A stretch of 23,023 nucleotides of DNA from a virus: positions 1 through 23,023 of the IMG/VR virus record IMGVR_UViG_3300011445_000070; one strand, written 5' to 3'. The stretch's first letter is position 1; every line of letters starts with the position of its first letter. Below the pieces are notes generated by a model. It was not told the DNA's origin. It made no database searches and saw only the letters and a list, made by a program, of their open reading frames with translations. The translations under genes were made by a program, and so were the position numbers. Shown here one piece after another: positions 1 through 23,023 of the stretch.

Positions 1-123
1 ATCAGGATAGGGAATATCTGTTGTATAAGTTTTAAACATTTCCTACCAGAATTCGTGATAGAAATCGGCGCTTCTTAGGTCTGATTATGCTTATAACCAG
101 ACTTATCAATAGGGTGGGGTATG
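1..123 (+). repeat. Left inverted terminal repeat, 123 bp
   Basis: Bases 1-123 are the exact reverse complement of 22901-23023. The match stops at base 124 (A, where the other copy read inward has T). Inside it, GTCTG (81-85) and CAGAC (98-102) can form a short stem just before the inward-pointing motif at 104-122. The repeat contains no gene of its own; an ATG at 121 reads only M-K-stop. The true repeat could extend beyond the window, because the match runs to the very last base on both sides. Confidence 0.97.
104..122 (+). promoter_or_regulatory. Candidate phage promoter motif in left ITR
   Basis: The 19-mer TATCAATAGGGTGGGGTAT lies at the inner edge of the repeat and points into the element. 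The same motif occurs in the other ITR and, with two substitutions, upstream of the major capsid gene. A run of G after an AATA block recalls the start region of single-subunit phage RNA polymerase promoters, which begin with G. If transcription starts at the G at 112, the leader to the ATG at 130 is only 18 nt. The role is inferred from recurrence and position. Confidence 0.45.
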
Positions 124-129
124 AAATAG

Positions 130-318
130 ATGGAAATCGGTGAGATTCTTCAAGAGATACAAAGCACTTTAGACCTGTTAATTAAGGTCATGGCTGCTGG
201 TCACAATCAAATAGTAGAAACATTAAATGGTGTGGTGCCCTCACAAGTGAAGGAACCAGATTACGATACTCAGCGCGGTATCTCAGTTCCAGTAGACATG
301 GACAGGTCAAAAGACTAA
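130..318 (+). CDS. Hypothetical protein, 62 aa, next to left ITR
   Basis: Unrecognised 62-residue protein. The first half (residues about 1-33) looks helical and amphipathic; the second half is polar and probably loose. It has no signal peptide or membrane segment. The start at 130 is fixed by an in-frame TAG at 127-129, so nothing further upstream in this frame can be used; this TAG also ends the tiny M-K reading frame opened by the ATG in the ITR. There is no good Shine-Dalgarno site, only a G-rich stretch at 112-119. The gene is transcribed towards the main late operon, opposite to it. It is supported by a sensible composition and by the inward motif just upstream, but it could be spurious. 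Confidence 0.5.
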   Translation: MEIGEILQEIQSTLDLLIKVMAAGHNQIVETLNGVVPSQVKEPDYDTQRGISVPVDMDRSKD

Positions 319-463
319 TCGAATTGGTTTCGGCGTGTGTCTTGCGCATATGATATCCACGGATGCCCCCTCGAAGCCAATACTAACAAAGCCCTCCAAG
401 CCTCTGTAGCGCACATATAGCACACATGCTCAAATCGTGAGGGCTACTTTAAAGGAAGAAAGG
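319..463 (+). other. Non-coding stretch with two stem-loops
   Basis: No gene is visible here. Two plus-strand hairpins can be drawn. The first pairs 323-332 with 372-381: ten base pairs including one G-U, with a 39-nt loop that can itself form a small GCAT/ATGC stem. The second pairs 391-396 with 439-444: six perfect GC-rich pairs. Inside the second lie two similar 11-mers, TAGCGCACATA and TAGCACACATG. Neither hairpin is followed by a T-run, so they do not look like simple terminators. They may be a structured RNA or an mRNA leader for the gene at 464. Confidence 0.4.
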
Positions 464-532
464 ATGCGAGTTACCAAGGGATTTTCGTTAAGCAAATGGC
501 GTGAGACGTATGACAAGGTTCGTGAGATTTGA
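464..532 (+). pseudogene. 22-codon 5' part of an ORF cut by an in-frame TGA
   Basis: An ATG at 464 follows a strong Shine-Dalgarno site (AAGGA at 452-456, seven bases away). It encodes 22 residues, beginning MRVTKGFSLSKW, and stops at TGA (530-532). The same frame then stays open from 533 through 775, and the next ATG (545) has no comparable ribosome site. The simplest reading is that 464-775 is one gene of 103 sense codons broken by a point mutation, a sequencing error, or a TGA that is read through. A genuine 22-residue leader peptide is also possible. Confidence 0.45.
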
Positions 533-544
533 ACCTACCTAAAG

Positions 545-775
545 ATGTGTAGTGAGAATGGAATCCAGATTGGTTTAGCAGAAAGAGAATCAAAAGAAAA
601 TGAAATCAACGAGCTTCTAAAATCTTCCATGCAATACATGGACAGCGTTGGAATGCCGATGCCTAAACCTCTTTGGGTTTACGACAATAAAGATGAGGAA
701 ACCTGGGCATCTTCAGATAAATTTGAATACCATCATCTATTAAAAAAACCATGTTGCCAGCGGCGCGCGGCTTAG
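545..775 (+). CDS. Hypothetical protein, 76 aa (probably the 3' part of a longer gene)
   Basis: Unrecognised small, charged, soluble protein. Residues about 10-30 are rich in Glu and Lys and probably helical. The middle has a Met/Pro-rich turn (GMPMPKP) followed by an acidic stretch. The start at 545 lacks a convincing Shine-Dalgarno site. The frame is open back to the TGA at 530-532, and just before that lies a well-initiated 22-codon frame, so the original gene was probably 464-775. It converges with the large terminase gene, whose stop is only 21 bases further on, so this is the end of left-end plus-strand transcription. Confidence 0.5.
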   Translation: MCSENGIQIGLAERESKENEINELLKSSMQYMDSVGMPMPKPLWVYDNKDEETWASSDKFEYHHLLKKPCCQRRAA

Positions 776-796
776 AATAGGTATAATTCATACCAA

Positions 797-2107
797 TCAT
801 AGACTCGTTGTATACTTAATCGTTGACTGTGGGTTATCGTATAGTCTTCGATAATTCACGGCAAGGTATCTCAATGCGTCCACAATGTGAGTCGCCCAAT
901 TATCCAAAGGCTTGCTTTTGTAGCAAGCGCGTGATTCGTCATACTCGCGTTGATACTCTCGGAGCGCACGAACACCAATTGGACAGTTTAGTTTATCTAT
1001 CCGCAGCTTGGGAAGAATGTAGCGCATTGCCTCAATCCCATCTTCAAAGTTTACTTTCGGGGTTACCTGAAACATCCACCCATGTTTTCTCGCCATCATT
1101 AATCGAGACTCGGTTGACTCCCAGCCCTGATGACCTTGATTGACATCATGAGGCATGAAGTGATTTCCCCAGCGACATCCGAAAGACTGACGAATTTGTT
1201 CTGCTTTATCTAAGTACCATTTCAATCCCTGGCCGGAATCATGAAGCAAGTGAACGAGATTAATGTGACGCCCTTCAATCTGAAAGAACCATCCTGCCGT
1301 GGCGTCTGTACCTCCTAAGTCCCATACTGTGTGTAATGGCAAGTTAGGGTTTGGCTTGATGGTGGTAAGACGCCCTTCTATTTCCATGTCGGAAATTTCT
1401 CGGGTAAAGTACGCCCCGATGTTACCTACATCGAAATCGCACATGAATTCCTGACGAATCATTTCCTCAGACATACCCATTCGGCGCGCTTCCTCGATAT
1501 GCTCTGGAGGAATTACACGTGAACCGTCTTCAAGAAACGTCTGCTCTACATTAAGATGCTGAACAAAGTAACGAGGGTTGTCTCGTACCGTGTCCATAAC
1601 TTCCCAGCCATGGTTCTTGCCACGAGGTGTGAACTGGAATATTTCAATGCCGCCATTCTGAACAAGGATAGGGTTAAGATATTGGCGTGCCAAAGGATTG
1701 TGTAAGCTAAACTCAGAGTAAATAATGGTAACGGGGTTTGTACCCATGAGACCATTGTAGTTATTGCTTCCACCTAGCACCATCCTTGAGCCGTTGATTA
1801 GCTCTATCTCCATGCGGGCTTCATTCTTTTTTGCAATAAGAACTTCAGGGATTGCCGAAAGAAAAGGCTTCCCATCAAAATCCATCCCCTTCCAAATAAC
1901 AGAGCGAGCCTGTTGAATCAGAGGGAATAAATAGACATGGGTTCCCACGCGAGTTAAGGCGCGAGTAAGCCATGCCTGTACTGAGATAACATCCTTTCCA
2001 CCCCTTCGGTGTATTACCGAGCAGACATTCAATCCCTGAATCACTGCTCTTAAAAAATCAACTTGGTAGTGCCGAGGTGTCATACCATAAGGTATTTTTA
2101 TGTACAC
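797..2107 (-). CDS. Terminase large subunit
   Basis: ATP-driven motor and nuclease that pumps DNA into the procapsid through the portal. The N-terminal ATPase domain has a Walker A motif (RRGGKD, residues 34-39) and a Walker B stretch ending in Ser-Glu (126-132). The C-terminal RNase H-like nuclease has the expected acidic residues at Asp263 (WDLGGTD), Asp321 (PHDVNQ) and Asp410 (HIVDALRY). At 436 aa it is shorter than T7 gp19 but both domains are complete. The start is GTG at 2107, with an AAGG-type ribosome site; it overlaps the stop of the nuclease gene upstream by ten bases. An alternative is ATG at 2083. It is the last gene of the late operon, as in T7, and lies about 700 bp from the left ITR. 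Confidence 0.96.
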   Translation of the reverse strand: MYIKIPYGMTPRHYQVDFLRAVIQGLNVCSVIHRRGGKDVISVQAWLTRALTRVGTHVYLFPLIQQARSVIWKGMDFDGKPFLSAIPEVLIAKKNEARMEIELINGSRMVLGGSNNYNGLMGTNPVTIIYSEFSLHNPLARQYLNPILVQNGGIEIFQFTPRGKNHGWEVMDTVRDNPRYFVQHLNVEQTFLEDGSRVIPPEHIEEARRMGMSEEMIRQEFMCDFDVGNIGAYFTREISDMEIEGRLTTIKPNPNLPLHTVWDLGGTDATAGWFFQIEGRHINLVHLLHDSGQGLKWYLDKAEQIRQSFGCRWGNHFMPHDVNQGHQGWESTESRLMMARKHGWMFQVTPKVNFEDGIEAMRYILPKLRIDKLNCPIGVRALREYQREYDESRACYKSKPLDNWATHIVDALRYLAVNYRRLYDNPQSTIKYTTSL

Positions 2108-2917: not shown

Positions 2918-2993
2918 ACAAATCCCTTTGTATAGGACTGGCATCGAAGGAGGGAAAGGAAGGGAAACCCCACGACAACACCAGTTTTATTGT

Positions 2994-3131
2994 TTAACGC
3001 TTGGTCTTTTTTCCGACCTTAGTCATAGCGGACTCCATGCCCGTCTGTTTTTTGGCGTCATAGTTTGGTGCGTATTGCACTCTGTCTTTAACCAGAGTCT
3101 TTGAGGGTTTTACTGGTGATTTACCTTTCAT
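2994..3131 (-). CDS. Small basic protein, 45 aa
   Basis: A 45-residue, strongly basic peptide starting MKGKSPVKPSK and ending KVGKKTKR, with many lysines and few acidic residues. The start codon overlaps the TGA of the gene before it (ATGA), and AAGGAG sits six bases upstream, inside that gene. This is a textbook coupled start. The function is unknown; the charge suggests nucleic-acid or virion binding. The ATGA coupling and clean ribosome site are the evidence that it is real. Confidence 0.65.
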   Translation of the reverse strand: MKGKSPVKPSKTLVKDRVQYAPNYDAKKQTGMESAMTKVGKKTKR

Positions 3132-3521: not shown

Positions 3522-3579
3522 CTTTATCTCCTTGTTATAAAAAGTATCCTACGATTGATATTTTACACCTATTACCGTT

Positions 3580-6390
3580 TTAGCTCCATCCAGTAATGGG
3601 AACGCTAAGCATGAAAGTAATTGCTTGGCCGTTGGAGAATATAGTACTTGCATTCTGGTTAGTAACTCCTGCTTTTGTTCCATCTTGAACACCGAAAGTA
3701 AAATATCCACTTGATGCTATTCCTAAACAGATAAATTGAGATGTTCCAGTTTGAGCTTGCGCTATATTTCCTATAATCTGATTCTGTGAATTAACAACAG
3801 TACTTGACATCGTTACATTAGAATTTGTTCCGTTATACCCTAGCGTAATTCTTGCCTCTGTTGCGGTTACAGTACCAGCCGCAAAAGAACCACGAATCTC
3901 TAGATCTCCACCAACTCGTCTTGACCATATATTGACAGAAGTTGGCGTTCCAAATCCTGTAAATGTAGGCGTATATTGCACCCAAGCATCAATGATTCCT
4001 GAGCCACCACCGCTTGTACTAAATGAAGTTGTCCACGAAGCAGCACTTGTTCCACTGGTTAAAATACAGGTGACAATAGCGGCCGTATTAGGTTGTAGGG
4101 AAATAATTAAATTACCACCTGATGAATTAACGGTTACAACACCTGTGCTGTTATTAATAATCTGCCAGGATTGACCTTGAGCCAGAGTGCTTGTTACTGG
4201 CATCTGTATTGTTTCAGTTGTTACTCCGACTACTTGTTGAATGTAGTTACTGCCGACAACCAATGTAGTTGTTCCGGCAGCTGAAGTAATTGATGTGAAT
4301 CCTTCAATGTGGTTTTTAGCGGAGAGATTGCTATTAGCATCCCACCCAGCAAAAGACGTTGCTGTTGGTGCTGTCGTTACTGAAGTTACTGCTGTACCGC
4401 CATTAGCAATTGGAAGCGTACCTGTGACTCCAGTGGTTAAAGGCAATCCAGAACAATTGGTTAAAATGCCAGCAGTTGGGGTGCCTATATTAATATTTGG
4501 TAATGTAGTGGAAAGGCTTGGTATACCTGTGACATCTGTAACAAGCACCGAACTATTGGCAGTTGCTAAACCAGTAATAGTATTATTCGCGGAGGAATAT
4601 AAGAGCTGATTAATTGTAGACGTAGATGGGTATGTGGCCGTAGTAAACCCAGGAAGCACCCCAACACCATTGGATTGATAAATAGTTCCAGAAGCGCCCA
4701 ATGTAATTGATTGCAAACTTCCAGTGGTAGTTGTGCCGCCTACGATTGGCGCATAGGCAGTAAAGGATGTAACACCTGTTCCACCACTTGGGACGTTTAC
4801 GGGAAGACTTGCTGTGAATTGAACAAACGTTATTGGATCCGTTCCGATTGCTGTAACCGTTGCAGTCTCTACCCATGAGGATTGCGTTTGCGTTGTTCCA
4901 CCTGTCAATATAACCAAATCACCTGGAGCAACTTCGGTAGGTGTATCGTAATCTGTGGCACGAGTAAGAACCCAGTTTGTAGCACCTGAGCCAACAGTAG
5001 TCACAGTATAAATACCATTTTGTAAGGATGATGTTTGGTTTTTTATAAGGACTCGTTGTCCCACTGTAGGGCTAACTCCATCCAACTGAATCGCCGCTTG
5101 TGCACCAGCGTTGGTAAGTGTTGCGCCAACACCAGATGCGCCATTGGCATAGGTTACAGTTAATGCCACAGTACTTGCGCAAACGCATGAACCCTGGATA
5201 TTTAATCCAGTTACCAATGAGTCAACATAGGATTTAATTGCCGCACTTGAAGATAAGTTTGAAGTCGTTGCCGTGGCCATAGATGCATCATTGATGATAG
5301 CAGATACGGCATTGGTTCCCTGTATATTAAAAGTTCCAGGTAAATTTAATGTTGAAGACAAAGAAAAAGCGGGATCGCCAAGTCCATCAGTATTGGTGAT
5401 ATCAATCTGATTCGCGGTTGGAACAAGTAACCTAGAGGCTAGATCGCCTGAGACTGTAGTAACTGTAACAAACCCTGTGGGCAATGTTGGGAAGTCTGCT
5501 GAATCTTGTACCTGTACCCAACTTGAACCGTCATGAAACTCTATAAACTGAGTATCAGTATTATACCTCAAGCCAATGCCGACTATGGGAATCACGCGCT
5601 GAGCAGTCGTTCCCTGAGGAATTCCCATGCCCGCAGTACCAGGGATTACGGGATTCGAAGCGATTGATGCTGTTGGGTTCCCACTGATACCAGTTCCATT
5701 AGCAATATCAATTTGCCCAGTTGTTCCAGTAAATATACGAGTTAACAATACACCTGTCGTTGTAGTATTGATTAAAATTCCACTTGGTAGGTCACCTAAT
5801 ACTTGGGCATTTGGGACTTCGCTATCAGCTACACGAACAATATATTCCGCATCATCAGGAGCAATCCCTCCGCCACTTGGTACATCGTAGGCAATAAATG
5901 CTGTGTTCGTAGGATTCATAGCCCATATTTGATTTGCGCCAAGGATGGGAAGTATTTTGTCTTTATCGGCAATCGTTGCAGAGATGTTATAACCAGGGTT
6001 TACAACGGTGTCATACATCTGAGCTTGCTGATCAACCAGAGTAAGGATTCCAAAGTCTTGGTTCAACATACTTGGCACGAAATTTGTGTTGATATAAAGG
6101 TTGGTGCGCTCAGCTGGCGTATTTCTAACAATGGTTATAACGTCATCGGCCGTTCTTCCAGAAAGGAAGGTAACTCGAACTGTACGAGTAACCCCAATGA
6201 ATGTGACATTGTAGAGTGATGAGCTAACTAACTGTGTCGCATCATCTGGATCAACACCAGAAGCTCTAGCATAGACATTGATGTCTGTAGTGACATCAGC
6301 AGTCCAGTTGGTATTAAAAACAGTTTGACTGGCCGTAGCTATCAACTGTGTGCGTGGTATGATGTCGTCAATGACTACCTGTACTGTCAT
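3580..6390 (-). CDS. Tail fibre protein (T7 gp17-like N-terminus)
   Basis: A 936-aa receptor-binding fibre. Residues about 1-150 resemble the T7 tail-fibre N-terminal domain that attaches to the tail: an IIPRTQLIATASQTVFNT start, then RTADDVITIVRNTPAERT, then a segment ending in QQAQMYDTVVNPG. The rest is a long, Thr/Ser/Gly/Val-rich, low-charge shaft with fibre-type motifs such as TGTLPIANGGTAVTS and GLRYNTDTQFIEF. It ends in a compact beta-rich tip. No catalytic motif for a depolymerase was seen. The ribosome site AAGGATT immediately precedes the ATG. It follows the largest internal virion gene, the same order as T7 genes 16 and 17. Confidence 0.93.
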   Translation of the reverse strand: MTVQVVIDDIIPRTQLIATASQTVFNTNWTADVTTDINVYARASGVDPDDATQLVSSSLYNVTFIGVTRTVRVTFLSGRTADDVITIVRNTPAERTNLYINTNFVPSMLNQDFGILTLVDQQAQMYDTVVNPGYNISATIADKDKILPILGANQIWAMNPTNTAFIAYDVPSGGGIAPDDAEYIVRVADSEVPNAQVLGDLPSGILINTTTTGVLLTRIFTGTTGQIDIANGTGISGNPTASIASNPVIPGTAGMGIPQGTTAQRVIPIVGIGLRYNTDTQFIEFHDGSSWVQVQDSADFPTLPTGFVTVTTVSGDLASRLLVPTANQIDITNTDGLGDPAFSLSSTLNLPGTFNIQGTNAVSAIINDASMATATTSNLSSSAAIKSYVDSLVTGLNIQGSCVCASTVALTVTYANGASGVGATLTNAGAQAAIQLDGVSPTVGQRVLIKNQTSSLQNGIYTVTTVGSGATNWVLTRATDYDTPTEVAPGDLVILTGGTTQTQSSWVETATVTAIGTDPITFVQFTASLPVNVPSGGTGVTSFTAYAPIVGGTTTTGSLQSITLGASGTIYQSNGVGVLPGFTTATYPSTSTINQLLYSSANNTITGLATANSSVLVTDVTGIPSLSTTLPNINIGTPTAGILTNCSGLPLTTGVTGTLPIANGGTAVTSVTTAPTATSFAGWDANSNLSAKNHIEGFTSITSAAGTTTLVVGSNYIQQVVGVTTETIQMPVTSTLAQGQSWQIINNSTGVVTVNSSGGNLIISLQPNTAAIVTCILTSGTSAASWTTSFSTSGGGSGIIDAWVQYTPTFTGFGTPTSVNIWSRRVGGDLEIRGSFAAGTVTATEARITLGYNGTNSNVTMSSTVVNSQNQIIGNIAQAQTGTSQFICLGIASSGYFTFGVQDGTKAGVTNQNASTIFSNGQAITFMLSVPITGWS

Positions 6391-6415
6391 AATCCTTACT
6401 CCCTGTAAGTGATGT

Positions 6416-9400
6416 TTAGCGTTTGCTTTCTCTTTTTTCCGGCAGTCCTTCCGTTACCGCGTCTATAAACTTTTGCTGCAATTGATACCCATACCACGTT
6501 TGAATCCCAGGGATTGCCCTGACCATTTTAGAAATGTCCGTTTTGTTATATTCTCCAGTGCCAACCATGGACAATACACGCATGTAATCTCTAAAAACTC
6601 CTATGCCCGCACCGCTCACCATTCCCAGCTGAGAGATTGCTCGTTGCTTATCATTTTGCATTTTGTTCAAAAATTCATTGTCCATGAACTGATTGGCAAA
6701 CATTGCTGATTTATACAGCATGGCAAATGGTGCAGAGTTTGAAAACGCTTCAGCCATGAAGTTTTCATCGTCCATATCGACTTCTTCGCCACGAGCAAGT
6801 TTTCTGGTGACTCCTTCCATGGAGGCCACCATAGCCATGACAACAGTACCTATAATCTGATTGGCCTCACCACGTTGTAATAACGGTACTGTGTAGCGGT
6901 TGAACGCTGCAAATCCCCAGCCCATGAATTGAGTAACAAGCGACAGTACAGAGTTATTGACAAAAAACGGCGCATCGGCTTTTCCCTTCCTGATAATGGT
7001 GTTGCGTGTGGCATTGAACACGGCATTAGACATCTTCACCTTGGCGGCTGAATCAGCCCAGTTGTAGTAATAGCTTTGGTAACCACCGAAAACTCCTTTC
7101 TCGCCGTGTTGGGCAAATTGCTCCATGAATGGCTTAGCCCAGGTCTCAGCATTCAAACCTATTCTGTCAAGTTCTTTAAGTTGAGATTTCTTAATCGAGC
7201 CCTTGATATATCGCTCCATCAAATCCATAATTTTGCTTTGAGCAATAGATGCCGTCATGCGGTGATTCATGTTCTCGATGTAGTTTGTTCCGGAAATATT
7301 TCCAGAGAAATGAGCGGCCTTTTCAAGCATCGCGGATAGCTTATTGCTAGGCGCTATGTCGCCGTAGGAATCATGGCCATAGAATTTTTTCACCATCCCA
7401 CCGCGGAAATGCTCCAAGGCAAGATTAGCTTCACTGGCATACTGACGAAATCTCTCGGCATTTTTCGTACCAAGCTTGCCATTCAATGTTGCAAGTGTTG
7501 GTGCGAATCCATCGCGTATAAATCGATACACACCATGTTTAAAAACATTCCCCATCATGTCTGATACCTGCGTCAATGGAACAAAGCCTAGACGCGTACT
7601 AGCAGCAAGATTTCTAATACCAGCAGCCATTTCTCGGATTTCTTTCCGATCATGATTTTTTCCTAGCATGGCATCAATTAAGTTCGTGGCAAATTGTTTC
7701 TCTTTAGCAAACTCCTTTCCAAGCTTCGCTTGCGCTTTAACAGCCTCTTTTCCACTCAGGTGAGAAATCTCGCTTAATTTCTTCTGGTATTCTTTTCCCA
7801 TGACCTCATAGACGCCAGCAACACCTTTTTTGCTATAGCCAATACCAGATAGAGCTTCTTCCATTGCCGCAGCTTTACCAACACCCATAGCGTAGTTATG
7901 AGCTATGGCTGGCATATCAGTAACGAGGAAGTTATTGTTTAGAAAAAGTGTTGAAGGAAGCATGATAGACCGCGCATAGGTAGGGTCTTCTTTCATGATG
8001 CCAGTTAGGTTTGAAACCTGGTGCCCCATCACTTCCTCATCAGATTGATTCATAATCGAAACCCAATGCGAATCAGCTGCAAAGCGTGTGGCCTCTTCAT
8101 CTTCATAAAGTGGTCTGAACTTCGGCAAGTCGCTTGGGTCACGGAAATGAATAAATCCAGTTTCGTGATGACGGTAGAAATAGGAATCAGGTAGCTCACC
8201 ATTCATAGCGCGCTCACTAAGGGCTGCTTGCTCGTCTAGTGTGGCGCGCTCAAAGGCGTCTGCTTCTTGTTGAGCTGTAGAAATTTCTTTATCCAGTCGA
8301 TCAATGTTTTCTTTAATTTCCGCATGTTGTTTCTTAAGTATTTCATCACTCAATCCCTCTGGACGTTCTGCCTCTAAATTGCGAACCTGTGAGGCGCGCT
8401 CCTTCTTTAATCCTGATATAACCTTCTTGGCTTTTGTATGAGACTTCTTAATATCGTTAAGAGGTTTTAATACCGATTTAAGCCCCTCAGCTTCTTTGCT
8501 TGTTAAAAGGTTTCGTTCACGCAGCAACATGTTGTGATCTGGATTGTCTCTCAGTGTTGCGATTAAATTATCGCGCTCTATGCGTTTTTGCTGGCGCAGG
8601 CTAGACAATTCTTGTCGGCTTGACTCAAGGTCTATCCCATTCAATATGTCTTCTCTAACAGTTTGTATTTGCGCCTCAATGTCATCAATTGGTTTTGTAA
8701 GTGAGCGAATCAAGGCATCTTGTTCCTGAAGACCTTTACTAACCGCATCAATCCATCCATCCTTATCGGCAGCCATTTGCATTCGATTGTAGACTTGAGT
8801 GAGATATCCCTTGGCATTAGCTAGTGGTAAAGTCTCTTCCCGAAACCCCATGGCTCGTTGATAGCGTGACCAGTACTTGGCAGAAAACCCATCCCATAAT
8901 TTCTTGGCCTCATTAATCTGGAGACCTTGAGCGGATGAATCAGTAATTACAGCCGAGGCTACTCTTCTTCCAAAGCTTGCAGGGTCATAGGGATCTTTCT
9001 TGTTCAGGGTAGAGTTGAGCTTCTTCAGCGACTCTTCTTCATCGACTGTCAGGTCAATACCGTTATATTGCTTGCGTAGACCTTCCATTTCCACACCAAA
9101 GGATGCGGCATCCCCTTCAATGTTCATGAGCCTTTTCTCAAAGGACATGCTATCCGGAACGTGTTTATTTCCGCCTATAGTTCCGATGTCATGGTCTACC
9201 AGACGATTGGTTAAAGCGCGGTTAATCCCATAAGAACTATTAAGTCCACGAACAATGGGGCTTGCTAGACCTGCGAGTTTGGTGACTTTGGGGAACCAGA
9301 ATAGCCCAGTCTTTGCGAAGCTTGAGTCAAGGAATTCCTGGGCATAGCTGTGTTCAGCTGCACTGATCGAGCGGTTGCCAACAGGAGTTGCTTCATAGCC

Positions 9401-13277: not shown

Positions 13278-15803
13278 TTAAGCATCTACTTTGTAGAATA
13301 TTCCTGTTAACTTCATGTCAAAAGGCTCACGATGATTAATCGTAAAGCTATTGTACGTGAAGTCGTTCCAGCCTCCTAAGATAGACATCTCAAAGCTTCC
13401 AGTAATTGGAGAAGGTGGGTCGCCTGGTATTGTTTGTTCCAGAGTTGTCATAGAAATAGGCACTACATTTCCGTCTTGGGTAATCGTCCCTCCAATGGTA
13501 TCTGCGAATAAAAATGTCGCAAATCGAAGATGTTTCGTGTCAAGAAGGTTGGAACTTTTGGCATTGCCCGACATAGAAATAGACAAAGGCAAAGGAGTTA
13601 TTTCTACTTCGATCGGAAATCCGTATTGCGCCACCAGAACCTCAACATCCTGGCCATGTGCTATAAATTCAACTTCACCACCAACCACCTCATCTTCAAA
13701 GCCAAATCCATCGCCTTGCATCAAAATCTCTTGTGCATTGAACCGTGTTTGACCTGATATAGAAGATGTAGCTATGCCATCATAGAAGCCTGCACAGTCA
13801 ACACGAGCGTCAAAGTCTAGCTGTTCAATAAAGAACTTGGTTGCGAGCGGATATGCAACAACATTTGCAGTGGTTCCAAAGTTGGTAAACGCAATAGCAT
13901 TCTCCCCAGCCATCGCATCCTCTTGGCTTAAATAAACTTTAAAAGTGTTGGCGGTCACACCAACTACCCAGTAAAAAGTGTTTACTTCAATTTGCGGGGA
14001 ACTCGTTGGCAAAGCTGCACCTATTGTAAATAAGGCAGCCGTGAAGGTTGATGTGCTGAAATTACTTGCCACAGCAGTTAAGGTGTCCGCTGAATTTGCA
14101 GTCAATGCAATAGGTGCTGCGGCTGATGCAATCTCACGCTCAATGACGAACCATGCGCGCCCATCGAAATTAGAAGTAACCCAGCGGAAATAAGCATTTC
14201 CATAGGTCTGGTCAAGTTCTGCTGGAGTAAAGCCATTCACATTTTCTGAGATAAGTGTTTGGTAAATAGCCATCGTACCATCTGCATTAATGATGAACAT
14301 GTATCGAGAACCCGCCCGAATTAAGTCAACATAGGCTGCTTCATCTATTGGCGTTCTAATCAACTGCTCATTGGCAATCGATATGATGCTTGAGGTATAA
14401 GCGTTGTTAAATCCATCCCAAAGAAGACTATGAGCATCATTCCCAGAGAGTACGATTATTTGGTTATCAATCCCTCGAGGTTGTACTGATTCTGCAGGCG
14501 TTGAATCCTGTAAGCTTAATGAAAAGTTCTTTGGAGTGATGGCTGTCTCAACTGATAAAGGAGTAGAGTAGACACCGGAATTTGTATGTACTGTAAGACT
14601 TCGATAGGGAACAATCCATTGTATATAGTTCACTGAGTCTGATGTGGGATACCAACTGATTGCATTATCATCATCATTTTCTAAGTCATTAAAGTCATCG
14701 AAGTCATTAATGACAGAAGCCCATAAGCCATTAGAAAGTAAATCGGTATTTGCAAAGAATGCTCGGTTTTGAAACGAAGAACATTTGCTTGGCCATCCTC
14801 GAGCGTCACTCCAAGCGGGTTCTGCGATTAATGATTCTTTGCCTGGGATTGCAGCCGTTGAAATGAATGGCTGAATAATATCGACAGTTGCCGTGTTTGT
14901 GCCATTGGTTGCCGTAATGCGGGCAATTCCACCGTTACCAGAGAACACACCACCAACATAGGCCGCTACAAAATTAAATGCACCAGATGTTCTAGTAATT
15001 GTTATTCCATAACCTGTAACAGCTCCTGGAGTAAATGCCGAGGTGTCATAACCTCCTGTAAAGTCAAACACAGGTAGATTCTTAAATACCACATTGGAAA
15101 AAGTCCAAGTGTTTAAAAAGAAATAATTTACGGTTCCAGTGCCGCCAGAAGACACCGTATAGTGATTAATTTCCTCTTTGGCATCTTCGGCAGTTGAATA
15201 AATTTGGCCTGTAGTAGTAGTTAGCGTTCTCATGAAGTATGTTCTATTTGAACGAACCTGCGGAACAGTCGTAGGCAAAGTTAGGGTCGATGTAATTCTA
15301 AATGGATATATGGCTCCGGCCAAAAGTGGCGTTGTCCACGTTACAATATCCGCCGCACCACTGACTCCTGCATTGGCGGCATTGGCTGTTCGAATCAAAT
15401 CTTTAGGAGGCAAAACCCCTGTTGTAACTCGAAACCGGTTATCAAGAACCGTATGGTCAATCAATGGAATTTCTCCCAAGAGAATTCCCGATGTGGCAAC
15501 AGTTGCGATTAAAATCCCTTCCAAATAAATATCAATGGAGTCTGGCTTGAATACCAATAAGTAACAACATTCATTGAGGTATTGAAAGGATTTAAAATAC
15601 ATTTGAGTGTAGGCGGTAACGCCTGTAATCTCATTGAGATACTCAGTCCCAAAGCGTTTTCCAGCAGAGCCTTGAGGATAGGTGATCACATTCTTGGCGC
15701 GCTTTAATCCTTGGTAATAGGCATTAAGCGTGACGCGAGAATACATCAGTGGAGATAATTCCCCTTTTGCGAAGAAATCTTGTGACCATAAAATATCTGT
15801 CAT
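13278..15803 (-). CDS. Tail tubular protein B (T7 gp12-like nozzle)
   Basis: An 841-aa protein forming the distal tail nozzle. The N-terminus (WSQDFFAKGELSPLMYSRVT, then LKRAKNVITYPQGSAGKRFG) is typical of this podovirus tail family. A large beta-rich middle follows. Internal segments such as WPSKCSSFQNRAFFA, AISWYPTSDSVNYIQWI and ALLWDGFNN fit the propeller-like body seen in gp12 relatives. It ends near NHREPFDMKLTGIFYKVDA. The ribosome site AAGGAC precedes the ATG. It follows tail tube A with an 8-bp gap. Confidence 0.92.
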   Translation of the reverse strand: MTDILWSQDFFAKGELSPLMYSRVTLNAYYQGLKRAKNVITYPQGSAGKRFGTEYLNEITGVTAYTQMYFKSFQYLNECCYLLVFKPDSIDIYLEGILIATVATSGILLGEIPLIDHTVLDNRFRVTTGVLPPKDLIRTANAANAGVSGAADIVTWTTPLLAGAIYPFRITSTLTLPTTVPQVRSNRTYFMRTLTTTTGQIYSTAEDAKEEINHYTVSSGGTGTVNYFFLNTWTFSNVVFKNLPVFDFTGGYDTSAFTPGAVTGYGITITRTSGAFNFVAAYVGGVFSGNGGIARITATNGTNTATVDIIQPFISTAAIPGKESLIAEPAWSDARGWPSKCSSFQNRAFFANTDLLSNGLWASVINDFDDFNDLENDDDNAISWYPTSDSVNYIQWIVPYRSLTVHTNSGVYSTPLSVETAITPKNFSLSLQDSTPAESVQPRGIDNQIIVLSGNDAHSLLWDGFNNAYTSSIISIANEQLIRTPIDEAAYVDLIRAGSRYMFIINADGTMAIYQTLISENVNGFTPAELDQTYGNAYFRWVTSNFDGRAWFVIEREIASAAAPIALTANSADTLTAVASNFSTSTFTAALFTIGAALPTSSPQIEVNTFYWVVGVTANTFKVYLSQEDAMAGENAIAFTNFGTTANVVAYPLATKFFIEQLDFDARVDCAGFYDGIATSSISGQTRFNAQEILMQGDGFGFEDEVVGGEVEFIAHGQDVEVLVAQYGFPIEVEITPLPLSISMSGNAKSSNLLDTKHLRFATFLFADTIGGTITQDGNVVPISMTTLEQTIPGDPPSPITGSFEMSILGGWNDFTYNSFTINHREPFDMKLTGIFYKVDA

Positions 15804-15811
15804 CTAAGTCC

Positions 15812-16402
15812 TTAATAGCCATTGCCAATTATCGTGCCCAGCATTCGGTTATTAAGAACAGGGAAGGTCGCCTGTGTGAATTGAGGTCTATTCTGAGCCT
15901 CAACCGCCGCGCACATTGCATAGGCTGTTGTTCGCTTCGCCTCAAGTGGAGCGTAGAAATCAGGTCGTTGCGCACTAGACAATGCGAGATACGCTGCTAT
16001 CTCATAAACAAAGTACTGTACAAAATGAGGTGGCAATTTAGAGATGTCGGGTTGAAAGACATACTCCATAAACCATTCCCCACTGTATTGGGCATAAACT
16101 TTGGAGTTTTCATAAATATCCCAGACATAAATGTTCGGGTAGACACGAATTGTTTTTAACCATCCAGCAGGCAATAAATAAATCGTCTGCCATGGTATAG
16201 GTGGCACTTCAACTGATTCCGATAATTGCTGAATCTGAGTTGCAAATCGCCAATTGTTTTGAGCAAGAATTGCGGGCAACAACATGTCAAATGCTTGTTC
16301 CGCTGCAACAACCATTTGGTCGCCATTTGTTAAACTAGAAATAGGAGCATGGCCCAGCAACGCAATTGCGTTGCTTATCATGTTGACTTTAGATTGGGCC
16401 AT
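15812..16402 (-). CDS. Tail tubular protein A (T7 gp11-like adaptor)
   Basis: A 196-aa tail adaptor that binds below the portal and joins it to the nozzle. The N-terminus (NMISNAIALLGHAPISSL, then AAEQAFDMLLPAILAQNNWRF) matches the usual gp11 pattern of an ALxxLG motif followed by a helical bundle with a conserved NxWRFA. A Trp/Tyr-rich beta segment occupies the middle. The length is normal for the family. AGGAG lies shortly upstream of the ATG. It is followed directly by tail tube B, the standard pair. Confidence 0.93.
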   Translation of the reverse strand: MAQSKVNMISNAIALLGHAPISSLTNGDQMVVAAEQAFDMLLPAILAQNNWRFATQIQQLSESVEVPPIPWQTIYLLPAGWLKTIRVYPNIYVWDIYENSKVYAQYSGEWFMEYVFQPDISKLPPHFVQYFVYEIAAYLALSSAQRPDFYAPLEAKRTTAYAMCAAVEAQNRPQFTQATFPVLNNRMLGTIIGNGY

Positions 16403-17374: not shown

Positions 17375-18205
17375 TTAGACTGATTCGTCACATTCGATTG
17401 CGATAACGCCACGGTTGTCGATAACCTTAGCTCCTGCTGAGAAAATACCGTTTACAAGCCAAGAAGTTCTGTCTGGTAAATAGTTAATCTCGGTTCTAAA
17501 GTCATGGCCAATCGCCATACCAGTAGACATTTTGTGCCACGCTAAAGCGGTACGAATGTCGCCAGTCTTAGGCAAACCACCTTCAGTCATTTGTGGGATA
17601 GTGACTACGTTGATACCTAAGTAATCAAGGAAGTAACCACGGTCTAGGATTCTATTTTCTGTGTAGAAAGTAGAAACGAATTGGTCGTCTTGCATTAAGC
17701 TGCGAACGTTTGAAGCACTTACTGCAATCCAACGCTCACCCTTAGGAACAGCATTGTTTTCGAAGTACTCATACACGCGAGTAAATTTCTCGTAATCGAA
17801 GTTAGTACCGCCATCAACAATGGTGTCGCCTGGATCAGCTGCCAAAGCATCAATGATGATTTGGTCAGAACGTCTACCCATACCTTGACCAACCAACATG
17901 GCATTTTCCATTTTGGCATCGAAGTTAACGGTAAGTTCCTGAACTGTATCCACAGCTGTTGGAGTGGTGTACTTTTGAATGGTACAGATTACTTTGGTGT
18001 AATCAGGGTCTTGGATGTTAACGGCTGCTAAGTACGCAGTAGGAACAGAGATAACCTGGTCTACTTTGCGAAACTCAACGCTTGCGCCAATTACATCATT
18101 CTTAGTACGAACTGAATCGCGCAATAGGAAACCCTTAGAGCGGTATTCAGCTTTTACTAACTCGTCAAAGTCTGTTTGTTGTACGGCTGTCAATGATTGT
18201 GACAT
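17375..18205 (-). CDS. Major capsid protein
   Basis: A 276-aa shell protein, placed directly after the scaffold gene and before the tail genes. Features typical of a podovirus HK97-fold capsid protein are visible: an N-terminal arm, a long helix around the middle (MGRRSDQIIIDALAA), ERWIAVSASNVRSLMQDDQF, and a C-terminal segment with TEINYLPDRTSWLVNGIF followed by DNRGVIAIECDES. It is somewhat short for T7-type capsid proteins but complete. AGGG lies about six bases before the ATG. A 184-bp leader with its own candidate promoter and a hairpin precedes it, which fits the need for very high expression. Confidence 0.92.
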   Translation of the reverse strand: MSQSLTAVQQTDFDELVKAEYRSKGFLLRDSVRTKNDVIGASVEFRKVDQVISVPTAYLAAVNIQDPDYTKVICTIQKYTTPTAVDTVQELTVNFDAKMENAMLVGQGMGRRSDQIIIDALAADPGDTIVDGGTNFDYEKFTRVYEYFENNAVPKGERWIAVSASNVRSLMQDDQFVSTFYTENRILDRGYFLDYLGINVVTIPQMTEGGLPKTGDIRTALAWHKMSTGMAIGHDFRTEINYLPDRTSWLVNGIFSAGAKVIDNRGVIAIECDESV

Positions 18206-18368: not shown

Positions 18369-18387
18369 AAACCCCACTCTATTGATA
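18369..18387 (-). promoter_or_regulatory. Candidate phage promoter upstream of capsid gene
   Basis: The minus strand reads TATCAATAGAGTGGGGTTT, identical to the ITR motif except at two of 19 positions. It points towards the capsid gene and begins just three bases past the scaffold stop codon. A match this long in a gap before the most highly expressed gene is unlikely to be chance. Overlap with a possible -35 box means host polymerase use cannot be excluded. Confidence 0.45.
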
Positions 18388-18389: not shown

Positions 18390-19115
18390 CTATCTTCTTC
18401 CTACAATATTCTCTAATTTTCTTTCCATTTCTTTACGATATGCAGGATCGGTTTTGTATTTGGAGTAGTTGGCGTTTAGTTCAGAGCGATATTCTTCCAT
18501 TGTCAGTCCTGCTTGAGTGACCGAAGCATTTCCATTTGGAACCAAAGTATTTCCGCCAATCATCTTACTGCGTATTTCTTCAAGTGCTTCAATGGCCTCA
18601 GCCGTCCTCATACCTGAGCTTAGTGTCTGGAACGCTTTCTCAGACAGATTTGACTTAGCCCAATTGTTAAGAACCTGGAGGCGTTCGCTTGCGTTCTCTC
18701 CGAGCTTGGCTTTTTCCTCATTCATATCTGTTCGGAATTCTTCTAAGTACAATCCAACTGTACCTAAGAATTTATCCATGACTTCTTGAGGTACGTGTTT
18801 GGATTTCGCAAACTCTGCCATCTCAATAAATGGCTCATAGTCAGGTTCAATCCATCCGTCCCCTTTACTAAAGTCATATTCCTTGGGAGCTGTTCCAAGA
18901 CGGGACTCTAGCTCTTTGTAGGCTTTGGCAACGTCTGCGACTGATTTATATTTCTCAGGCAAGAACTGGGGCCTGTCTCCAGTACCAGGGGTATTGTCGT
19001 CCCAGTACCAGGAAGGGGCTTCTGAGACTGGAGCTCCGCTTTCTGGCGCAGTTGTTCCGCTATCTTCTGGAGTTGTATCTGGTGGGGTAGCAATGCCTTC
19101 ATTTAATAAACTCAT
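18390..19115 (-). CDS. Capsid assembly scaffolding protein
   Basis: A 241-aa protein with the make-up of T7 gp9-like scaffolds. It has an acidic, Pro/Thr/Ser-rich disordered N-terminus (about 1-45), then an FLPEKYKSVADVAKAYKELE motif (about 52-71) typical of this family, then charged helices, and a basic C-terminal helix ending in YRKEMERKLENIVGRR that would bind the capsid protein. It starts at 19115 with ATGA overlap to the gene before it. It is followed by the regulatory gap and the major capsid gene, as expected. Confidence 0.9.
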   Translation of the reverse strand: MSLLNEGIATPPDTTPEDSGTTAPESGAPVSEAPSWYWDDNTPGTGDRPQFLPEKYKSVADVAKAYKELESRLGTAPKEYDFSKGDGWIEPDYEPFIEMAEFAKSKHVPQEVMDKFLGTVGLYLEEFRTDMNEEKAKLGENASERLQVLNNWAKSNLSEKAFQTLSSGMRTAEAIEALEEIRSKMIGGNTLVPNGNASVTQAGLTMEEYRSELNANYSKYKTDPAYRKEMERKLENIVGRR

Positions 19116-19435
19116 TGTTTTGTACTCTCCGCTTCAATTCTTTGTTCATGAGATTTAATGCAATTACGAATCATGCGAAATGCTTCTTTAAATCCTTCAT
19201 AGTAGACTGAAGAGTATTGTATGTTTTGCCCATTCGGATGAATGAACCCTGGTATTAAAAAGCGCTCTGTAACTTCCTCCAGAAATTTTTTCCCATCTGG
19301 TGTAGAGAACACGAAATAGCAAAGCTTCTCCATCTCCATTGACTCAGGTTTATTTTTTAGCTTCTCGATATTATCTTGATAGCCCTGGTAATAATTCTCA
19401 GGCTCTAAAAAAGGATTAGGTGTTTCTGTAGTCAT
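19112..19435 (-). CDS. Small structural-module protein, Bbp19-like
   Basis: A 107-aa protein in the small gene slot between portal and scaffold. It contains a CYFVFSTPDGKKFLEEV segment (about 44-60) that recalls the Bbp19 family of small phage structural proteins, where a Phe-x-(T/S)-x-(D/E)-G-x-x-x-Leu pattern is common. It is otherwise acidic and helical. The ATG shares its A with the portal stop codon (TAATG) and the gene ends in ATGA overlap with the scaffold start, so it is coupled on both sides. The exact role is not known; the family name is tentative. Confidence 0.72.
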   Translation of the reverse strand: MTTETPNPFLEPENYYQGYQDNIEKLKNKPESMEMEKLCYFVFSTPDGKKFLEEVTERFLIPGFIHPNGQNIQYSSVYYEGFKEAFRMIRNCIKSHEQRIEAESTKQ

Positions 19436-21060
19436 TAAGCTTCTGCTCCTTGTGGTGGTAAAGGTTGTTCTTCACCTTCTTGTTGTGCTTGTGCCATCAT
19501 GGCGTCTTGCTGGTCTTGAGCCATTTGTCCAGCTGCCTGGACTTGCTCAGGAGAGTTTAAGTAACGAGCATCAACCTGCATTTGTTCAGCTATGAGATAA
19601 GGCGCGAGACCTGGATTGATATACATCAATGCGGGGCCAGCACCGAATACGCCTTGCATCAACTGGTAGTACTGAGTGAAGCGTGCGATATCCTGCTGCC
19701 CTTTAGCCAAGGCCAATGGCGATCGGTACCGAAAATTAACCTTAACCCCTTTGATTTCAGGCTTAGGCAATAGACCCATCTTATCCAGTATGTATGAGCA
19801 TCGCTTAATCACAGGCCATAAAAATTCCTGCTGCAAGCGAGAAAACAATGGGCCAATTCTCTGAGCAAGATTCTGCTGAACAATCATTAGCTCGGTAGCA
19901 GTTTGAGGCTGTACAGATTGATTGGGATTTACGTCATTGAACAGCAACGCTTTAATCTGATTGCGCAAATCCATGATGGTGAGCTGTGAGAATTGGGGAT
20001 TGCTCGAGTCAGGAAGAGGAACAAGCGGAGGCGAACCCCCTACTCCAATTGGAGCAATCGGTATTACTGTAAACGGTTCTAGCTTAAAAGTATGTGGGTT
20101 AAATACGGCGTCACTAAATCCCATGTAGGGCTTGAAGGTGTTTAAGTTAGCCGCTGCAAGCTCTATACGTGCCAGCTCATTCAAAGAAATAATTGATGGC
20201 AGCGCGTCCATCACTGGGCCACGGCCAAAGACTTCATTATTTACTTTCTGGAAGCGCCACACGATACCCGGATTGGACTCGAACTCTTCACAGAGTACGG
20301 GGCATTCAGCCGAACCTACCATATACATGTAGGGCTTTTTCCTATGTGGCATGTACATCACACCTTCATAGAGTGTTTCAATTCGTGCGTCTGGATTCTC
20401 CACCAATAGCATTAACATCTCTGGTGTAAGGATCGCATTAGGCCAGCGGATTTGGATTTCATTAATCTTCACGCTTTCCCAATTCCTGAACCATGAATCG
20501 ACACGACCAGTCATTGACTCTTCAATGGCGAGCTTATCCATAGGGATTGAAGTAAAAAGCAAAGGCTGTTCATCAGTGAAGCTATTTACCACGAGGCAAC
20601 TTGTGCCGATTGCTAAGTCAAAGTAACACTCGTTAATAACCACATCAAAGTTAGACTCGTGGATATAGACAAATAGTCTGCGCATGTAGTTATCGAGCAT
20701 TTCCTGGATTTGATTGCGATCAATATCTTCTTCAGTATCAAAAGTTTCATCTATGTCTAAATATCCCCACTGAACTTGGGGAGGGGTCATGGCATCATGG
20801 ACTTTAGATACGAATGTCTTGGTTGCCTCCACCGCAGTCGTATCATAGATTCGTGATCCCTTAAACTCGCCTTGCTGCTCTTTAGGACGATAGAATCTGT
20901 TTCGATAGGGGATCGCATAGTAATAGCATGCTTCAAGGAGTGATGCCCATAAGTCAGCTACCTGCTGCGCGGCATCATATCTCTTTTTAAATAAACGCCA
21001 ATTCTTCTCGTGCTCTGCGTAGAGCGCAGCCTCACGCTCTACCACTTCCATGTTATCCAT
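19435..21060 (-). CDS. Portal protein (head-tail connector)
   Basis: A 541-aa dodecameric portal of the T7-type head-to-tail connecting protein family. The N-terminal helical region contains WASLLEACYYYAIPYRNRFY, followed by GSRIYDTTAVEATKTFVSKV and HDAMTPPQVQWGYL, all familiar in this family. The middle has WRFQKVNNEVFGRGPVMDALPS and SLNELAR, and the C-terminus is a Gln/Ala-rich helix (VQAAGQMAQDQQDAMMAQAQQ). The length is normal. The ribosome site AAAGGA lies five bases before the ATG. It forms the channel for packaging by the terminase and carries the tail adaptor. Confidence 0.95.
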   Translation of the reverse strand: MDNMEVVEREAALYAEHEKNWRLFKKRYDAAQQVADLWASLLEACYYYAIPYRNRFYRPKEQQGEFKGSRIYDTTAVEATKTFVSKVHDAMTPPQVQWGYLDIDETFDTEEDIDRNQIQEMLDNYMRRLFVYIHESNFDVVINECYFDLAIGTSCLVVNSFTDEQPLLFTSIPMDKLAIEESMTGRVDSWFRNWESVKINEIQIRWPNAILTPEMLMLLVENPDARIETLYEGVMYMPHRKKPYMYMVGSAECPVLCEEFESNPGIVWRFQKVNNEVFGRGPVMDALPSIISLNELARIELAAANLNTFKPYMGFSDAVFNPHTFKLEPFTVIPIAPIGVGGSPPLVPLPDSSNPQFSQLTIMDLRNQIKALLFNDVNPNQSVQPQTATELMIVQQNLAQRIGPLFSRLQQEFLWPVIKRCSYILDKMGLLPKPEIKGVKVNFRYRSPLALAKGQQDIARFTQYYQLMQGVFGAGPALMYINPGLAPYLIAEQMQVDARYLNSPEQVQAAGQMAQDQQDAMMAQAQQEGEEQPLPPQGAEA

Positions 21061-21471: not shown

Positions 21472-22053
21472 TTAATTTGTTTCTGTAGCTTTCTCAGCTG
21501 TGCCATTATTGTGGGCATGATTCGTCTTCATCCTTGACACATCTTCTTTCATAGAATCAATTTCTTCCTGGAGCTTGAAGGTTTCAAATGCTCCTCGGCC
21601 TACGTTGATGGATTCCATGAGTTGTTTAATTTCGGCAGCAGTGAACTCTTCTGTGCCAGCTTGTCGAATAAGTTGCTGGTATTGTTCGTAAGGGTTTGAT
21701 TCAGGGTTGACGGCCATTCGGACACGGTTTCTACCAATCCCATACCGATATGCCCCAGTGAGTCGCCAATGGTCAAAATTGAAGAATTCCTCGTCTTTTC
21801 CATTTTCTCCCTCGTCTTCCCAATTACTCTTCGAATATATCTTTCCCATTTCATAACACTCTTTGAATATGGGGTACTGCATAGTCCATTTATAAAACAG
21901 GGCATCACTTATTCCGGCCTCTTTACAGAATGCCGTCATGGTTCCTTTGGTATTCATTACCTGAAGAACCATTGGGCAATGCACCTCTTCGTCATAGGTT
22001 CTTTGGCCTGTCTTTATTTGCAAATAAATCAGTTTTGCATCAATCTCTGCCAT
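21472..22053 (-). CDS. Terminase small subunit
   Basis: A 193-aa DNA-recognition subunit that brings the phage DNA to the large terminase. A helix-turn-helix is visible at residues about 37-57 (GTMTAFCKEAGISDALFYKW), the usual N-terminal DNA-binding domain. A central part with FNFDHWRLTGAYRYGIGRN and a C-terminal coiled coil (EEIDSMKEDVSRMKTN) follow. It is the first gene of the leftward operon, while the large subunit is the last, about 20 kb away. The ATG at 22053 has AAGGA twelve bases upstream, a long spacing. Confidence 0.88.
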   Translation of the reverse strand: MAEIDAKLIYLQIKTGQRTYDEEVHCPMVLQVMNTKGTMTAFCKEAGISDALFYKWTMQYPIFKECYEMGKIYSKSNWEDEGENGKDEEFFNFDHWRLTGAYRYGIGRNRVRMAVNPESNPYEQYQQLIRQAGTEEFTAAEIKQLMESINVGRGAFETFKLQEEIDSMKEDVSRMKTNHAHNNGTAEKATETN

Positions 22054-22103: not shown

Positions 22104-22574
22104 ATGCTTGATTGCTCTCAGTTCCGTTCGCTCATCATTGAGCCTGTATTATCTAAGCTTCAAGTTTATTCCAAGGACGCGGAAGAAATACTTGTCTTCA
22201 CATGTGCTGCGGAATCCCTTGGCGGTCATTATCTCGCACAGGTCAAAGGCCCAGCCCTTGGCGTGTATCAAATGGAACCAAATACTTATACTGATATCTG
22301 GGTGAATTTCATTCGTGCCCGCAATCAGCTTGCAACTCTTATGGCTCTGCATTTTGGCTGCAACAAGATTCCTGATGTAGACCGCTTAATCTATGACCTA
22401 CATTTTGCAACCGCTATGACTCGTATTCATTACTTGCGATGTACGGGCAAGTTACCTGATGCGAAAGACGTTGATGGAATATGGGATTACTACAAGAAGA
22501 ATTACAACACTGAGAAGGGTAAGGCTAAGAAAGATGAATCCATCAAGAAGTACCAGGAATTCATCAAGTCTTAA
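22104..22574 (+). CDS. Lysozyme-like muralytic enzyme, putative endolysin
   Basis: A 156-aa protein with a transglycosylase/lysozyme-type active-site pattern: a catalytic Glu in CAAESLGGHYL, then GPALGVYQMEPNTYTDIW, equivalent to the ES...A.G..Q..P.T motif of soluble lytic transglycosylases. Its C-terminal part (RCTGKLP, then WDYYKKNYNTEKGKA) resembles other small phage muramidases. It has no signal peptide, so it would need a holin or enter in another way; no holin was recognised. It is on the plus strand, opposite to the late operon, with its start 50 bp from the small terminase start. AAGGA is eight bases before the ATG at 22104. A virion-associated role is also possible. Confidence 0.8.
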   Translation: MLDCSQFRSLIIEPVLSKLQVYSKDAEEILVFTCAAESLGGHYLAQVKGPALGVYQMEPNTYTDIWVNFIRARNQLATLMALHFGCNKIPDVDRLIYDLHFATAMTRIHYLRCTGKLPDAKDVDGIWDYYKKNYNTEKGKAKKDESIKKYQEFIKS

Positions 22575-22767
22575 GGTTATCTCGATGTTTAAATGCTTCT
22601 GTGATGTTCACCTCATGGAAGCATATGCCACACATGATCATCGTCACCGTTTCACTTCCTGCACTCTTTACTTTAGATATTGGCATCCACTTATGGTATG
22701 GCTCAAATCCTTTAGCAGCTTTTGGGCATCGACAAGCTTTATCGTTCCAGTCGTCACAATTACTCAT
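22564..22767 (-). CDS. Small cysteine-rich (possibly zinc-binding) protein, 67 aa
   Basis: A 67-aa protein with Cys4, Cys12, Cys14 near the N-terminus and a CxxC pair (Cys46, Cys49) followed by His51 and His61, in the pattern MCGICFHEVNITEAFKHRD. This suggests a zinc-binding fold. I recognise the C-terminal pattern as one seen in small phage proteins but know no function. AAGGG lies seven bases before the ATG. It converges on the endolysin gene with an 11-bp overlap. A terminator sits directly upstream, so its mRNA must come from readthrough or a promoter not seen here. Confidence 0.65.
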   Translation of the reverse strand: MSNCDDWNDKACRCPKAAKGFEPYHKWMPISKVKSAGSETVTMIMCGICFHEVNITEAFKHRDNLKT

Positions 22768-22780
22768 TGATGAACCCTTA

Positions 22781-22804
22781 AATTAAAACCCTCATCCTTG
22801 AGGG
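22781..22804 (-). terminator. Rho-independent terminator after the tRNA-like element
   Basis: On the minus strand, CCCTCA (22804-22799) pairs with TGAGGG (22794-22789) around the loop AGGA. The stem is followed at once by TTTTAATTT. The stem is short (six pairs) but perfect and the T-rich tail is well placed. It would end a transcript starting at the right ITR motif. Confidence 0.6.
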
Positions 22805-22820
22805 CACTACATAATCCTTT

Positions 22821-22883
22821 ATGGCCTAGTTAGGATTCGAACCTAACCTATGTCAATCGCTTAACCACTAGGATATAGACCAT
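22821..22883 (-). ncRNA. tRNA-like element without an anticodon arm
   Basis: Minus-strand RNA of 63 nt. The ends pair over eight bases (ATGGTCTA with TAGGCCAT, one G-U). A perfect T-arm follows: GTTAGG and CCTAAC around the loop TTCGAAT, the canonical T-loop. A D-loop-like TAGTGGTTA is present on the 5' side. Only 28 nt lie between the acceptor strand and the T-arm, too few for both a D-arm and an anticodon arm; about 13 nt are missing and no 5-bp stem with a 7-nt loop can be drawn. It could be a deleted tRNA gene, a tRNA-mimic RNA, or an old attachment-site remnant. Confidence 0.6.
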
Positions 22884-22900
22884 TCATAGATAGCATACCA

Positions 22901-23023
22901 CATACCCCACCCTATTGATAAGTCTGGTTATAAGCATAATCAGACCTAAGAAGCGCCGATTTCTATCACGAATTCTGGTAGGAAATGTTTAAAACTTATA
23001 CAACAGATATTCCCTATCCTGAT
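22901..23023 (-). repeat. Right inverted terminal repeat, 123 bp
   Basis: Exact reverse complement of bases 1-123 with no mismatch. The inner boundary is sharp at 22901. The tRNA-like element begins only 17 bp further inside. No direct copy of the repeat was noticed elsewhere in the window, apart from its 19-nt inner-edge motif near 18378. Confidence 0.97.
22902..22920 (-). promoter_or_regulatory. Candidate phage promoter motif in right ITR
   Basis: Mirror copy of the motif at 104-122, pointing inward on the minus strand. If transcription starts at the first G of the G-run (22912), the product would read through the tRNA-like element and stop at the terminator, giving an RNA of about 130 nt. 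Readthrough would reach the Cys-rich gene and, further on, the small terminase operon. Confidence 0.45.

Follow-up and report, generated by a model that had tools for sequence, protein, structure and literature searches.

IMG/VR virus record IMGVR_UViG_3300011445_000070 is a virus contig of 23,023 bases, which was analysed over its whole length (hereafter the window); the record holds nothing beyond it. The window is bounded by a perfect inverted repeat (IR), and the subject of this work is that repeat and the phage genome architecture to which it belongs. Between the two IR copies lies a podovirus late module, with the large terminase subunit (TerL) near the left end and the portal and a protein in the position of the small terminase subunit (TerS-like) near the right end:

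1..123 (+), left copy of a longer IR, shortened to the inner 123 bp at the assembler k; the reverse complement of 22901-23023 without a mismatch
797..2107 (-), TerL (phrog_2, E 2.4e-22); in most relatives the gene ends (3') at the IR or within it
3580..6390 (-), tail-fibre-like / head-decoration-like protein (PHROG matches)
6416..10279 (-), large internal virion protein (phrog_342)
13278..15803 (-), tail protein (phrog_376)
15812..16402 (-), tail protein (phrog_394)
17375..18205 (-), major head protein (phrog_3437)
18390..19115 (-), head assembly / scaffolding-like protein (phrog_1052)
19435..21060 (-), portal, the head-tail adaptor (phrog_332, E 8.4e-73), used as the query for finding relatives
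21472..22053 (-), helix-turn-helix protein in the terminase-small position, TerS-like (HTH_Tnp_1)
22104..22574 (+), conserved 156-aa protein (phrog_3108) that marks the portal end of the arm and was used for synteny
22901..23023 (-), right IR copy, joined to the TerS/portal end of the arm; reverse complement of 1..123

PHROG and profile annotation detected no replication gene, protein-primed DNA polymerase or terminal protein in the window. A previous reading of the sequence without database searches (the sequence-only reading) had called the virion gene set T7-like. This holds insofar as the virion genes resemble those of podovirus families, but not for the early genes: no open reading frame (ORF) of the size of a single-subunit RNA polymerase of the T7 type was found in the early arms of near-complete relatives, where the largest early ORFs are of 289 and 336 aa.

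The reverse complement of window positions 1-123 agrees with 22901-23023 at 123/123 positions, and the identity drops to background at position 124 on both sides, as the sequence-only reading had seen. The longest other inverted repeat within the window is only 31 nt long (71%), which excludes a chance origin of the 123-bp repeat. No direct terminal repeat was found in the window, unlike the T7-like Autographivirales. The earlier opinion that 123 is an uncommon k-mer size, and hence speaks against an overlap artefact, was mistaken. Published assemblies of the Joint Genome Institute (JGI) used MEGAHIT with the k-list 23,43,63,83,103,123, of which 123 is the largest (PMC6243002; PMC8125072); both papers describe metatranscriptome assemblies, and we infer the same k-list for the metagenome of the window. 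End overlaps of exactly the maximal k have been described on contigs broken at repeats (PMC10914622). Among the relatives (designated by G numbers, and by L numbers for loci), end repeats of exactly 123 bp also occur in G002 and G064 (quite different repeat sequence) and at the TerL end of G027, while they measure 127 bp in G050 and G053 and 99 bp in G059, both being k values used with metaSPAdes (PMC10914622); a few relatives have other lengths (120, 71 and 25). Because 123 stands in the JGI k-list and relatives with unrelated repeat sequences also end in exactly 123 bp, the length is set by the assembler: the repeat is real, and the 123 bp are the portion of a longer repeat that the assembler kept.

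Relatives were gathered with the portal as query and then by a TerL-profile search (58 loci). In the pooled set, 44 of the 58 TerL-bearing contigs (at least 50% identity) end at most 300 bp from the TerL match, and 23 of these 44 also stop just past the portal side, being late-arm-only pieces of 19.5-25.0 kb; assemblies across the family thus break at the same two places. Other contigs pass these places. In G003 (33,262 bp) and G010 (28,859 bp) inverted repeats enclose the same arm, and the sequence runs on beyond them into early genes; G005 too passes the IR. The early genes beyond the IR in G003 and G010 encode an SSB, a lambda P-like and a P22 Cro-like protein, a RecE-type PD-(D/E)XK exonuclease, a RecT/ERF-like protein and a serine recombinase with a Resolvase domain; the names RecE and RecT were assigned from gene order and from the YqaJ and ERF annotation of Methylophilales phage MEP301, Pfam giving DUF3799 for the RecE-like protein and nothing for the RecT-like one. 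The visible IRs of G003, G010 and G005 (106-116 bp) are clipped by the contig ends, with a conserved core element (see below) just outside the visible part, and the true IRs are probably longer.

The whole layout can be read from seven contigs of 31.6-35.3 kb, each of which runs from the late arm through a complete IR into the early arm, while at its ends lie the two edges, inner and outer, of a second IR copy in inverted orientation. The complete IRs measure 817 (G027), 497 (G042), 487 (G046), 1170 (G057), 539 (G062), 1193 (G063) and 984 bp (G067). Compared with the internal IR copy, 13 of the 14 end pieces are identical and the remaining one matches at 231/234 positions. With the missing second IR copy added, the genomes come to 32-36 kb on a circular map, so that two identical inverted repeats separate two single-copy regions in each of these near-complete relatives. 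Single arms were assembled as well. G039, a contig of another sample, spans 24,060 bp and coincides at 100% with G027 124-24183, which is the late arm from one IR edge to the other; G028 (7,786 bp) holds only the early arm of a relative, and its inverted ends match perfectly over 114 bp.

We propose, with a probability of about 0.86, that the window is the late (virion/packaging) arm of a podovirus-like phage of 32-36 kb whose genome maps as a circle of late arm, IR, early arm and IR. Of this map the window itself displays only the late arm with the innermost 123 bp of each IR copy; it is not a complete linear virus but a fragment devoid of early genes. An assembler working at k = 123 would have been undecided over which end of the early arm follows the repeat, and the contig would have stopped there with the inner 123 bp of each copy kept. 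Judging from the relatives, the genome of the window would carry the same kind of early arm.

The orientation of the two arms differs between contigs. Let A stand for the early-arm end with recT. The portal end adjoins A in G005, G010, G023, G024, G026/G027, G046, G057 and G063, and the TerL end adjoins it in G003, G025, G042, G062 and G067, a split of about 8 portal to 5 TerL joinings in which the calls for G057 and G067 are the weakest. The IR-less outgroups G029 and G031 have only the first of these joinings, A with the portal end. The most direct comparison is that of G025 (early flank-IR-TerL) with G027/G026 (early flank-IR-portal), which have opposite joins on DNA that is 99.98-100% identical: G025 1-4168 is the reverse complement of G027 24184-28351 (100%), and G025 4046-14855 equals G027 1-10810 (100%). 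One identical phage occurs in the habitats of 3300027152, 3300027487 and 3300027491. G062 and G063, as well as G042 and G063, have collinear early arms in opposite orientation relative to the late arm. We consider it likely that the late arm inverts relative to the early arm. The architecture is graded strong and the inversion only likely, because this evidence consists of assembled contigs, short reads cannot phase IRs as long as 817 bp, and the assembler may have chosen the joins arbitrarily. If the IR copies recombine, this would both keep them identical and flip the arm, and flipping would, by analogy with chloroplast DNA, herpes simplex virus (HSV) and the 2-micron plasmid, give two co-existing isomers. 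In G018 (L114/L115, 23473-23780) the IR edge lies within the TerL coding region; TerL is intact in one joining, and in the other its N-terminal part would be fused to other sequence, which would mean either a flip-dependent terminase or an assembler join.

The position of the IR inner edge varies: it stays clear of TerL in the window, G003 and G010, coincides with the TerL stop in G002 and G027, and falls within the coding region in G018. As the IR copies are identical within genomes, yet alignable between genomes mostly in a short core only, the IRs show concerted evolution with moving borders, which is best explained by recombination between the copies. The relatives encode RecE-like exonucleases and RecT/ERF-like annealing proteins. 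Several small early genes in the early arms of G027 (L209) and G024 have a common leader, TTAACGGGAGAAGAGA, upstream of the start; the outer IR edge of G027 coincides with one copy of this leader, which hints at how the IR border moved.

The following elements were found in and around the IR:

79..102 (no strand), imperfect dyad GTCTGATTAT-GCTT-ATAACCAGAC in the left IR (IR alignment and the end of G015)
22922..22945 (no strand), the same dyad in the right IR (IR alignment)
104..120 (+), promoter-like motif TATCAATAGGGTGGGGT, directed from the left end into the arm (motif search)
22904..22920 (-), promoter-like motif TATCAATAGGGTGGGGT, directed from the right end into the late genes (motif search)
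18371..18387 (-), internal copy of TATCAATAGGGTGGGGT, 165 bp upstream of the major head protein gene (motif search)
L299 3055-3140, L279 2954-3040, L024 9358-9444 and others (late-to-early), examples of the core element in the IR zone of the family

The dyad is kept in G003, G005, G010, G009, G012 and G015; that it is a protein-binding or crossover site is speculative. The motif TATCAATAGGGTGGGGT has three matches in the window against 0.02 expected, stands at the inner edge of both IR copies pointing inward, and its internal position (160-165 bp upstream of the head-protein gene) is kept in ten relatives of the window's clade (the W clade). A simple expression switch by flipping is unlikely, because the motif lies on the arm side and would drive the same genes after a flip. 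The core element, of about 75 bp with a consensus near GACTGGTGACTCA-TT-AGAGAGTTGTGGGGCACCGGAATCC, is present in the IR zone of about 24 contigs, either within the IR or just outside its visible part, in members of several subclades, among them G003, G005 and G010 of the window's own subclade; where its direction was checked, it always ran late to early. For the window, its place would be just beyond both ends. It may be a replication origin, a packaging start or a recombination site. A structured RNA was considered and rejected, the element having only four nearly invariant pairs without covariation, and it was treated as a DNA element; a comparison with Rfam yielded no match.

The sequence-only reading had left three explanations of the inverted ends in competition, of which the third, the late arm of a larger phage stopped at an inverted repeat that the assembler could not cross and possibly invertible, is supported by what was found: relatives pass through the repeat into an early arm, and both joinings have been assembled. 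A complete linear element with true inverted terminal repeats (ITRs), replicated by protein priming or closed by hairpins, would account for the perfect inverted ends and their sharp inner borders, which rules of the CheckV type take as a sign of a closed genome; we nevertheless give it hardly any credence, as the repeat length equals the assembler k in several cases of unrelated sequence, the window has no replication gene, and close relatives run through the repeat into the early arm, so that the repeats are not physical genome ends. Protein priming of the phi29/PRD1 type is further disfavoured by the relatives' early arms, which have lambda-P-like and SSB genes and, as stated above, no larger ORFs than those of 289 and 336 aa. 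A divided genome, with late and early arms as separate molecules sharing terminal sequences, would suit the 23 late-arm-only contigs and the early-arm-only G028 with their perfect inverted ends, but is very improbable: more than ten contigs link both arms through the IR, and the late arm meets the inner edge of the IR but the early arm its outer edge, unlike segments, which would have ends in common. Weighing against a quadripartite, inverting genome are the facts that no contig holds both IR copies complete, that an exact search of viral contigs for the outer IR and flanks of the window gave no match, that the visible IR copies of G003 differ slightly (95.7%), and that, with an IR longer than a read pair, an assembler may join the arms arbitrarily, two assembled orientations being no proof of two molecules.

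This last point gives room to a rival to the flipping alone, a static quadripartite genome in which the IR is real, the arms have one orientation, gene conversion maintains the identity of the copies and the opposite joins are arbitrary. The complete IRs of 0.49-1.19 kb are beyond short-read phasing, the roughly even split of joinings is also expected from arbitrary joining, and the IR-less outgroups have the portal joining only; G025 and G027, the same phage with opposite joins, argue the other way. Identical inverted repeats on one molecule in the presence of RecE/RecT-like enzymes normally lead to inversion plus conversion, which we also count against a static genome, and we consider it unlikely, if with a real chance of being right. 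An inversion that is site-specific, catalysed at the IR dyad by a serine recombinase of the Hin/Gin type and switching a phage trait, is improbable. A gene for a 189-aa Resolvase-domain serine recombinase does adjoin the IR in G003, G005 and G010, which belong to the subclade of the window, and the dyad with its 4-bp centre is conserved in the IRs of this subclade. The recombinase was, however, not seen for the window and not found in 46 TerL-bearing and 11 other records, near-complete IR genomes included (a weak negative, for lack of a positive control), the IR alignment revealed no dyad in G002, and no alternative fibre or ORF was seen to be switched: no gene is fused across the IR in the window, G003 or G010, only the 3' end of TerL overlaps it in some relatives, and the inward promoter-like motif travels with the arm. 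As most members lack the gene, the serine recombinase was rejected as the general cause, and homologous recombination is the better default because the recombinase is limited to the window's subclade. Returning to the inverting genome, the far-reaching form of it, in which a whole tailed-phage family routinely flips its entire virion-gene arm during infection, within a recombination-driven replication akin to a double rolling circle and with the conserved IR element as origin, packaging or crossover site, is possible but doubtful.

Chloroplast genomes (PMC7145664) have the order large single-copy region, IR, small single-copy region, IR, and exist as two isomers side by side. The phages are alike in having two single-copy arms between identical IRs, copies that are identical within and divergent between genomes, and IR edges that shift in and out of neighbouring genes (in the phages, the 3' end of TerL); they differ in size (about 33 kb, with IRs of 0.5-1.2 kb) and in that the two isomers are only proposed for the phages, from assembled contigs. 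Double rolling circle replication is known from the 2-micron plasmid and has been proposed for HSV and chloroplast DNA (PMC3147054). The phages have in common with these systems inverted repeats on a circular-mapping genome together with recombination functions, but most members have no dedicated flipping recombinase. Halovirus phiH1 has an invertible L-region of 11 kb (PMC6210493) and thus likewise a large invertible segment of a tailed-virus genome flanked by repeats. The phiH1 repeats are, however, the insertion sequence ISH1.8/ISH12 and its segment becomes a plasmid, whereas the repeats described here are intergenic or TerL-end sequence, no transposase was seen, and the segment is the whole virion-gene arm. 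The recombinase gene adjoining the inverted repeats in the W subclade is reminiscent of fibre switches of the Mu G, P1 C and phiCh1 type, from which the phages differ by 23 kb of late genes in place of a fibre segment, by having no alternative fibre ends and by the missing recombinase in most members.

The nearest annotated portal matches are MEP301 and Pelagibacter phage EXVC031P (28-29% identical). They have a similar 34-kb podovirus late module, and MEP301 is also annotated with recombinase, YqaJ and ERF genes; both were rejected as IR-bearing relatives, as they have no long inverted repeat. Among phages and plasmids, the best TerL relative (in phages) is 37% identical, and no close isolate or phage-plasmid was found. 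No portal relative was confirmed in GTDB genomes, hence no host or prophage was found. A related contig of 31.6 kb, G033 (L213/L214), is circular by a direct end repeat of 99 bp and lacks a long-range IR; it carries lambda-P-like and RecE-like genes and is a useful outgroup for the origin of the IR.

The main interest lies in the family-wide architecture, not in the window element alone. A quadripartite or isomerising tailed-phage genome was not found in the literature, where the search, which covered subscription journals thinly, returned chloroplast papers and unrelated ones only. If a whole family of tailed phages shares a chloroplast-like quadripartite layout, this would be a genome architecture new to the Caudoviricetes, and the family would lend itself naturally to the question of why circular genomes keep inverted repeats. 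A common rule accepts a direct or inverted terminal repeat of at least 20 bp as the mark of a closed genome, and contigs of 20-25 kb with perfect inverted ends may pass as such, while here they are fragments without early genes. In a cohort study, ITR contigs were commoner than known ITR phages would account for.

Two RNA-like stretches lie near the ends of the window. Positions 392-444 (+) match the Rfam abiF RNA (RF03085) with 32.2 bits against a gathering score of 37, the E value being 0.0009 when the search is restricted to window bases 1-800; the match was not found in five related loci. Carried by a phage, such an RNA, which is linked to abortive infection by AbiF, could serve as a decoy. 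Just inside the right IR, a tRNA-like stretch (22822-22881, -) has a good acceptor stem, D-loop and T-arm; it apparently lacks an anticodon arm and is not called by ARAGORN. At the matching position G018 has an odd tRNA with a 4-base anticodon (L115 4377-4454).
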